Origin: Coxiella endosymbiont of Dermacentor marginatus
Lineage (GTDB): Bacteria; Pseudomonadota; Gammaproteobacteria; Coxiellales; Coxiellaceae
Length of the DNA: 64,000 bases
Assembly (NCBI RefSeq): GCF_907164955.1
Contig: NZ_OU015521.1
Location: forward strand, 186,001-250,000
Direction: 5' to 3'
The notes below the pieces were generated by a model that ran no database searches, was not told where the DNA came from, and saw nothing but the letters and a program-made list of their open reading frames with translations. The position numbers and the translations under genes were made by a program. Each line of letters opens with the position of its first letter. The first letter of the stretch is position 1. Shown here one piece after another: positions 18,920-64,000 of this stretch.

Positions 18920-19554
18920 TCAAAAATGATTCCTATCCAAACGACCTTTTAAAAAAGAGATTTAGCGGTTATCTTCCTGTTGTAATAGATGTTGAAACGG
19001 GTGGACTGGAACCCCTTAAAAATCCTCTATTGGAAATAGCTACTGTTTTAGTTGAAATTAATCAGGAAAAAAAATTACATCCCGGAAAATTATTTGCTCG
19101 TCATATATTACCATTCGAAGGTGCTTCTTTGGACCCAGTATCTTTAGAAATCACGCGAATTGATCCTTTTCATCCTTTCCGCTTTGCTATTAAAGAAAAA
19201 AAAGCATTACAGGAATTATTTACGTTCGTGGAAAAAGCTGTGGTTAATCATGGCTGTCGTCGAGCAGTTCTCGTAGGTCATAACGCCCATTTTGATTTGT
19301 CCTTTATTCAAGCGGCTATGAAGCGTTGTAAGATAAAAAAATCTCCATTTCACACATTTACTTGTCTTGATACTGCTACTCTAGCAGCTACTGTATTCGG
19401 CAAACCTGTATTAGCTAAAGCACTGCAGGAGGCTCGTATTCCATTTGATAAAAACGAAGCGCACTCCGCAATTTATGATGCCAAGTGTGCAGCTGCATTA
19501 TTTTGCCACATTGTCAATAAAATTGGACCAAGATGGAGACGAGAAGAGCCATAA
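18916..19554 (+). CDS. rnt: Ribonuclease T
   Basis: DEDDh 3'-5' exoribonuclease that trims the CCA end of tRNAs and matures 5S and 23S rRNA. The 212 residues show Exo I VVIDVETGG near 22-30, Exo II VGHNAHFDLSFI near 118, and Exo III HSAIYDAK near 178, including the catalytic His. It starts on the ATGA that ends pyrC. Confidence 0.95.
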   Translation: MIKNDSYPNDLLKKRFSGYLPVVIDVETGGLEPLKNPLLEIATVLVEINQEKKLHPGKLFARHILPFEGASLDPVSLEITRIDPFHPFRFAIKEKKALQELFTFVEKAVVNHGCRRAVLVGHNAHFDLSFIQAAMKRCKIKKSPFHTFTCLDTATLAATVFGKPVLAKALQEARIPFDKNEAHSAIYDAKCAAALFCHIVNKIGPRWRREEP

Positions 19555-61726: not shown

Positions 61727-64000
61727 CTAATGTGCCTCATCCCAATTATTTCCTACTCCAATATTAACCACTAACGGCACTAAAAGGGATGTGACTTCTT
61801 CCATTTCTTTCTTAATTTTCGGAATAATGCGATTAAGATCTTTATTTGCAACCTCAAAGACAAGCTCATCATGCACCTGAATAATCAAATTGGTATTAAT
61901 GGTACTGTTATTTTTAAGCCAATCATTTAATTTGATCATAGTAATTTTAATGATATCCGCTGCAGTACCCTGTACAGGTGCATTAATTGCAGCGCGTTCG
62001 GAAGCACGGCGGCGCTGAAGATTAGAAGCGTTAATGTCAGGAAGATAGATACGTCGACCAAAAAGGGTTTCTACATAGCCCTGCAAAGAAGCTATAGCAC
62101 GTGTTTTTTTCATATATTCATGAACCTTAGGATAACGTTTAAAGTAAATATCGATGTACTTTTGAGCAAGCTTACGTTCAATACCAAGTTGGTGTCCAAG
62201 ACCAAAACTTGACATACCATATAATAATCCAAAATTAATCGTCTTAGCATGACGACGTTGTTCCGTTGTTACTTGCTCTAATGGTACTTCAAAAATCTCA
62301 GAAGCGGTGGTACTATGAATATCCCATTTTTTTTCAAATGCCTTGATTAATTCGGAGTCTTTGGACATATGAGCAATAATACGTAATTCCACTTGTGAGT
62401 AATCTGCTGAAACGATACAAAAACCCGGTGGTGCAATAAAAGCACGTCGGATTTTTCGACCTTCATCCGTACGGATAGGGATATTTTGCAAATTAGGATT
62501 ATTTGAAGATAAACGTCCTGTAGAGGTAATGGTCTGATTGTATGACGTATGCACCCGACCGGTTAATGAATTCACTTGTTTAGGTAGACGATCGATATAA
62601 GTCGATTTTAATTTACTAAAACTTCGATGCTCCAAAATAACTTTTGGCAAAGGATAATTGCGTGCCAAATCCTGCAATACATTTTCCGCCGTCGACGGCT
62701 GCCCTCCGAGAGTTTTTTTGAATATCGGCAGTTTTAATTCATCGTACAAAATCTTTTGTAATTGTTTCGGTGAGCCGAGATTAAATGCCCGCCCTGCTAA
62801 CTTATAAGCCTCATATTCAAGCTTATTGATACATTGACTCAATTCATCACTTTGTAAGCGCAACATTTGGGTGTCAATTAATACACCATGCCTTTCCATT
62901 TGCATTAGAATAGGTATAAGCGGTATTTCAATTGACTCAAAAACTTTCTTTAAATTTTTTTCTTTTTCGATTAACGACATTAATTTATAATGTAATTGTA
63001 AGATTAGATCCACATTTTCAGCAGCATAGATTGTTGCCTTGTCAATGGGGACTAAATTAAAGGTAATCCGTTTGATGTCCTTCCCCACAATATCTTCAAA
63101 CTTGAGTATTGAACGCCTTAGATAATGTAAAGCTAATGCAGATAAATTATATCGACTACTATTGCTATTTAAAATATAGGATTCCAATTGGATATCATAT
63201 ATTTTTGCTTTGATACTCAAGCCTTCTTTGGCTAACATCTTACTGCCATATTTTACATTTTGACCGATAACTGTTTTTTCTGAATCACCGATAATTGATT
63301 TTAATTGCTGCAGTACCCACTTTTTTTCAAGTTGAACAGGGGCATGAGCGTAATTATGGCCTATAGGAACATAGGCTGCTTTATTAGGTCTAATGGCAAA
63401 TGAAATTCCGACTACGCTCACTTCTACAGCAGAAAAATTATTAGTTTCTATATTAAAAGAAAATTCTTTAGCATCTCTTAATTTTTTTTCCCACTTTTCA
63501 AAAGTTTTTTTACTAACGATGGTAATATAATTAGGATTATCAGAAGATTTAATAGTCTTTTCCATTAAAATCTCCGAGAGCCAGGATTTAAATTCATATT
63601 TGGTAAATAATTCAATTAATTTTCTATTGTCTTTAGATCCCAATTTTAAATCCGTTAGTTTTTCTTCCAAAGGTAGATCAGAAATCACCGTAACTAATTG
63701 ACGTACTAACGGTAATTGATGCAAATGAGCACGAAGGTTTTCACCTACTTTTCCTTTTATTTCATTAGCCTGTTTTTGAATATTTGCAAGGGATCCATAT
63801 TCATTCAACCATTTAGCAGCGGTTTTTGGGCCCACTTTGGGAATGCTTGGAATATTGTCGATTTTATCACCGGTTAAACTTAAATAGTCAACAATTTTTT
63901 CAGGGGGGACGCCAAACTTTTCTACGACACCCGAAGGATCCAAGAAACGATGCGTCATTGTGTTAACTAAAGTAACACGATCACTGACAATTTGTGCTAA
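61727..64000 (-). CDS. polA: DNA polymerase I (5' end beyond the window), proofreading site eroded
   Basis: Repair and Okazaki-fragment polymerase. The frame continues past 64000: the codons before Met (63958) match the family (LVNTMTHRFLDP), so that Met is internal. The visible part holds the end of the 5'-nuclease domain (SLTGDKIDNIPSIPKVGPKTA), the 3'-5' exonuclease-fold domain and a complete polymerase domain. The latter has motif A VSADYSQVELRI, motif B RRHAKTINFGLLYG and motif C QVHDELVFEV, and ends GNNWDEAH. In the exonuclease domain the E. coli catalytic residues Asp355, Asp424 and Asp501 are replaced by Asn (63452-63454), Gly (63245-63247) and Asn (63014-63016); only Glu357 remains. 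Proofreading is therefore predicted to be lost while polymerisation is intact. Confidence 0.97.
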   Translation of the reverse strand, partial: LAQIVSDRVTLVNTMTHRFLDPSGVVEKFGVPPEKIVDYLSLTGDKIDNIPSIPKVGPKTAAKWLNEYGSLANIQKQANEIKGKVGENLRAHLHQLPLVRQLVTVISDLPLEEKLTDLKLGSKDNRKLIELFTKYEFKSWLSEILMEKTIKSSDNPNYITIVSKKTFEKWEKKLRDAKEFSFNIETNNFSAVEVSVVGISFAIRPNKAAYVPIGHNYAHAPVQLEKKWVLQQLKSIIGDSEKTVIGQNVKYGSKMLAKEGLSIKAKIYDIQLESYILNSNSSRYNLSALALHYLRRSILKFEDIVGKDIKRITFNLVPIDKATIYAAENVDLILQLHYKLMSLIEKEKNLKKVFESIEIPLIPILMQMERHGVLIDTQMLRLQSDELSQCINKLEYEAYKLAGRAFNLGSPKQLQKILYDELKLPIFKKTLGGQPSTAENVLQDLARNYPLPKVILEHRSFSKLKSTYIDRLPKQVNSLTGRVHTSYNQTITSTGRLSSNNPNLQNIPIRTDEGRKIRRAFIAPPGFCIVSADYSQVELRIIAHMSKDSELIKAFEKKWDIHSTTASEIFEVPLEQVTTEQRRHAKTINFGLLYGMSSFGLGHQLGIERKLAQKYIDIYFKRYPKVHEYMKKTRAIASLQGYVETLFGRRIYLPDINASNLQRRRASERAAINAPVQGTAADIIKITMIKLNDWLKNNSTINTNLIIQVHDELVFEVANKDLNRIIPKIKKEMEEVTSLLVPLVVNIGVGNNWDEAH

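Follow-up and report, generated by a model that had tools for sequence, protein, structure and literature searches.

Repeated substitution of proofreading-site carboxylates in the DNA polymerase I of Coxiella endosymbionts of ticks

In the Coxiella endosymbiont of Dermacentor marginatus, DNA polymerase I carries substitutions at three of the four carboxylates of its 3′–5′ exonuclease site, while its polymerase and 5′ nuclease active sites are intact. We consider it highly probable that the enzyme is in other respects a normal DNA polymerase I, and that relaxed selection inactivated its proofreading site after tick endosymbiosis began. This conclusion draws on the substitutions themselves, their repeated origin, a relaxation specific to the exonuclease domain and the retention of an intact DnaQ.

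The stretch analysed here (‘the window’) is 64,000 nucleotides of contig NZ_OU015521.1, positions 186,001 to 250,000. polA is an open frame on its minus strand (61727..64000) that runs past the window end, which falls inside the gene; the full-length gene (G000:C1:247727-250453, minus strand) encodes 908 aa, with 453 bases, the first ∼150 codons, lying outside the window. Its start codon is GTG, and an ATG occurs at codon 10. In a profile search it gave the single PF00476 match (E = 2.3e-161) in the 901,206-bp window genome, and an N-terminal FEN-like 5′ nuclease is also present (PF02739, E = 9.8e-59), so that the product has both hallmarks of a DNA polymerase I (PolA1), a family A polymerase with its catalytic residues and a 5′ nuclease. 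All 13 checked catalytic residues are intact in the polymerase domain (61730..62956, minus strand), as are all 13 checked active-site residues of the 5′ nuclease when the full gene is considered (in-window part 63548..64000, minus strand). The 3′–5′ exonuclease domain lies between them (62966..63547, minus strand) and can be aligned end to end with residues 324–517 of the Escherichia coli enzyme, although its active site is broken. Sequencing error was considered as a source of the substitutions and rejected as unlikely, the 908-codon frame being unbroken.

Alignment of the exonuclease domain with Klenow (phmmer to PDB 8oo6, E = 7.3e-207) required no gaps, and residue numbers differ by 21 throughout; residues can therefore be assigned securely to their E. 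coli counterparts. Reading the codons on the minus strand, E. coli Asp355 is replaced by Asn334 (AAT, 63452..63454), Asp424 by Gly403 (GGC, 63245..63247) and Asp501 by Asn480 (AAT, 63014..63016), while Glu357 is kept as Glu336 (GAA, 63446..63448) and Tyr497 as Tyr476 (TAT, 63026..63028). The original prediction had named these three substitutions and had described the alignment as secure and the polymerase motifs as conserved; the reading frame, motifs and coordinates proved to be as it gave them. Substitutions are concentrated in this domain: changes affect 7 of the 31 near-invariant exonuclease columns as against 2 of the 126 polymerase ones (Fisher p = 1.7e-4), and 2 of 46 are changed in the 5′ nuclease. 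Within the exonuclease, the catalytic columns are hit more than the rest (3/4 vs 4/27 changed, p = 0.028).

In E. coli Klenow, metal A is held by D355, E357 and D501, and metal B by D355 and D424; exonuclease activity is abolished by D424A or by D355A/E357A. The window protein therefore retains the domain with a broken DEDDy motif, having N, E, G and N in place of the four carboxylates of an active exonuclease together with the motif tyrosine, and so has the sequence character of an exo-dead Pol I. With three of four carboxylates gone, no usable metal site should be expected and 3′–5′ exonuclease activity has probably been lost, although retention of E357 and Y497 may permit a trace of activity. 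An AlphaFold model of the Klenow part, made with seven sequences, was poor in the latter half of this domain (mean pLDDT 62, pTM 0.45) and supports no structural claim here.

The states of the site were compared across ten Coxiella genomes, C. burnetii not among them, nine of which encode the exonuclease domain; the ancestral state was judged from the Ornithodoros maritimus symbiont and other Coxiellaceae. Given in the order D355, E357, D424, D501 (E. coli numbering), the site is D,E,D,D in the O. maritimus symbiont, the one genome of the nine with a complete DEDD-Y; at least one carboxylate is gone in the other eight. In a maximum-likelihood tree, the window genome (N,E,G,N) groups with its sister G005 (N,K,I,D, with Y497N in addition), which we take to be the Amblyomma americanum symbiont, and the two have D355N in common. 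A second group unites G004 (H,Q,D,D), presumably the Rhipicephalus turanicus symbiont, with G001 (D,Q,D,D) and CLERM (D,E,D,N); E357Q is common to G004 and G001, D355H being extra in G004. In the third, the intact O. maritimus symbiont falls with its close relative from O. amblus, which carries D424N (D,E,N,D), and the Amblyomma nuttalli symbiont (D,K,D,G) falls with G007 (D,K,D,D), these two having E357K in common and the former D501G as well. Because the substitutions differ between lineages, at least five independent first losses are required on this tree. Several of these relatives have a single substitution and might retain partial exonuclease activity. All nine genomes preserve the active sites of both the 5′ nuclease and the polymerase, save one polymerase residue in G005.

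Outside Coxiella, the site is intact (D/E/D/D) in 37 of 40 gammaproteobacterial PolAs, and the genomes in which it is broken (G036, L048; G037, L015; G049, L045) belong to other gammaproteobacteria; the other sampled Coxiellaceae have an intact site. That the broken site is an old family trait of Coxiella at large, rather than a loss in symbionts, is hardly credible, as the O. maritimus symbiont and the other Coxiellaceae are intact and the residues broken vary by lineage. The original prediction favoured symbiont decay over such a trait and proposed an alignment with other Coxiella symbionts; that alignment, in which the broken residues differ by lineage and one site is intact, lends support to its reading, the intact O. 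maritimus symbiont being nested within the Coxiella tree. To judge from these sequences, loss of the exonuclease is recent and has occurred repeatedly within the genus.

Codon ω within Coxiella was 0.173 for the exonuclease (bootstrap sd 0.019), 0.124 for the polymerase (sd 0.012) and 0.123 for the 5′ nuclease, a modest exonuclease–polymerase difference of about 2 sd, with synonymous sites near saturation in the deeper pairs; the corresponding values in other Coxiellaceae were 0.092, 0.087 and 0.091. In comparisons of close pairs (NG86), the exonuclease exceeded the polymerase in the pairs O. maritimus/O. amblus (0.34 vs 0.12) and G004/G001 (0.58 vs 0.19), and the gap was small in the pair A. 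nuttalli/G007. Constraint on the exonuclease domain in Coxiella is relaxed and far from absent. An ω well below 1 shows that this is no neutral relic, and some residual constraint is to be expected because the domain is still needed to hold PolA together.

Later stages of polA decay are seen in three of the relatives. Where the exonuclease and polymerase domains meet lies an A-rich tract (62951..62968, minus strand), across which the frame is intact in the window genome. This tract carries two different single-base contractions in G001 (L033) and G007 (L038): in each, the runs of A are a base shorter than in relatives, and polA is split into one frame for the 5′ nuclease plus exonuclease and another for the polymerase. 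Both genomes are without an intact mutS, with which such contractions fit; homopolymer assembly error is an equally possible source, and the split gene could represent decay, a product rescued by slippage or an assembly error. In G006 (L089), at 623 kb the smallest genome, polA consists only of a 295-aa 5′ nuclease ORF with conserved neighbours, beside which lies a weak 24-aa polymerase remnant.

Family searches of the ten genomes bear on the mutational consequences. Every one of the ten encodes a DnaQ whose DEDDh site is intact. MutS and MutL were not found in the window genome, G002, G005, G006 or G007; they are broken in G001 and the O. amblus symbiont, and intact in CLERM, G004 and the O. 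maritimus symbiont. A second, weak DnaQ-family match in the window (19219-19512, plus strand, in a 213-aa frame) is probably another DEDD exonuclease, e.g. RNase T.

The original prediction had further suggested that loss of Pol I proofreading could help explain the AT drift and gene deserts of this genome. As a main cause of AT drift, genome decay and gene deserts, exonuclease loss seems very improbable and finds no support here, as DnaQ is intact everywhere and MutS and MutL are missing from the window genome. The only fully intact genome, that of the O. maritimus symbiont, does have the highest GC at the polA locus (0.43, as compared with 0.36 at that locus in the window genome), and loss of the exonuclease from E. 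coli Pol I is cited in PMC3121766 as producing a lagging-strand mutator. Nevertheless, the same paper cites a share for Pol I of only 1–2% of lagging-strand synthesis, the O. amblus symbiont lost the exonuclease at a polA-locus GC of 0.42, and D424G runs against AT drift because its GGC codon, which is GAC or GAT in most relatives, raises GC. CLERM and G004, moreover, have lost exonuclease residues yet keep MutSL, so in these lineages the exonuclease was lost before MutSL. The missing MutS/MutL is a stronger mutator in the window genome than loss of the Pol I exonuclease, which probably has a small mutator effect on the lagging strand and in repair patches; with MutS/MutL absent and DnaQ intact, this modest effect would add to that of the absent mismatch repair. 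In the symbiont of A. americanum, mutSL loss has already been proposed as a driver of reduction (PMC4494066).

A loss that was itself selected is unlikely. H. pylori Pol I is without proofreading and performs mutagenic translesion synthesis (PMC3121766), and by analogy an exo-minus Pol I might extend mismatches and bypass lesions in a cell with no Y- or B-family polymerase; convergent loss of proofreading in tick Coxiella symbionts would then allow Pol I to take over lesion bypass. The window genome gave no match to the Y-family (PF00817) or B-family (PF00136), and this, together with the absence of MutS/MutL, makes its polymerase complement similar to that of H. pylori (PMC3121766), which likewise has neither mismatch repair nor translesion polymerases; the losses in Coxiella are, furthermore, convergent. 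Against this, the O. amblus symbiont, G001 and G004 lost exonuclease residues while fragments of a Y-family polymerase are still recognizable. Decay accounts better for the variety of residues and substitutions, the relaxed ω across the whole domain and the frameshifts or deletion that came later, and small symbiont populations favour drift.

Under relaxed selection, Pol I would retain removal of RNA primers through its 5′ nuclease and gap filling through its polymerase, while the exonuclease domain would persist as a scaffold under weaker constraint, no longer binding catalytic metals. Sister lineages broke the same site independently, and in the smallest genome deletion of the exonuclease and polymerase left a stand-alone 5′ nuclease. 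Our literature search, with subscription journals outside its coverage, found no paper on loss of the polA exonuclease in Coxiella symbionts. Exo-dead Pol I and stepwise loss of polA in symbionts are already published, and the window protein is in this respect mostly ordinary. The useful part is a series within one genus of intact, once-hit, multiply hit, frameshifted and truncated polA, open to comparative tests of the order of decay (proofreading, then polymerase, the 5′ nuclease being retained) and of its mutational cost.

Compared with E. coli DNA polymerase I (PDB 8oo6, 1kln), the window protein has the same three domains, ∼50% identity, a gapless exonuclease alignment and intact polymerase and 5′ nuclease sites, and differs in the replacement of three of four DEDD carboxylates. 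In keeping with the original prediction that exo-dead Pol I exists naturally in other lineages, the DEDDy motif is broken in about half of the Pol I orthologues of bacteria, a state that shows no relation to genome size and is for the most part specific to particular phyla (PMC12926913). The proteins of Firmicutes, Actinobacteria and Helicobacter pylori (PMC12926913; PMC3121766) likewise keep the domain with a broken motif. Whereas exo-dead Pol I is usually viewed as a fixed, phylum-wide state, and is mostly that elsewhere, Coxiella shows at least five losses inside a single genus, at different residues. The closest parallel is the stepwise reduction of polA in other symbionts, in which proofreading and polymerase parts were lost independently and the 5′ nuclease kept: partial loss of polA arose independently in Cardinium (PMC12842512), and Buchnera and many endosymbionts keep the 5′ nuclease of Pol I alone (PMC6403173). 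Unlike those cases, most Coxiella genomes show the stages of point mutation that precede deletion.
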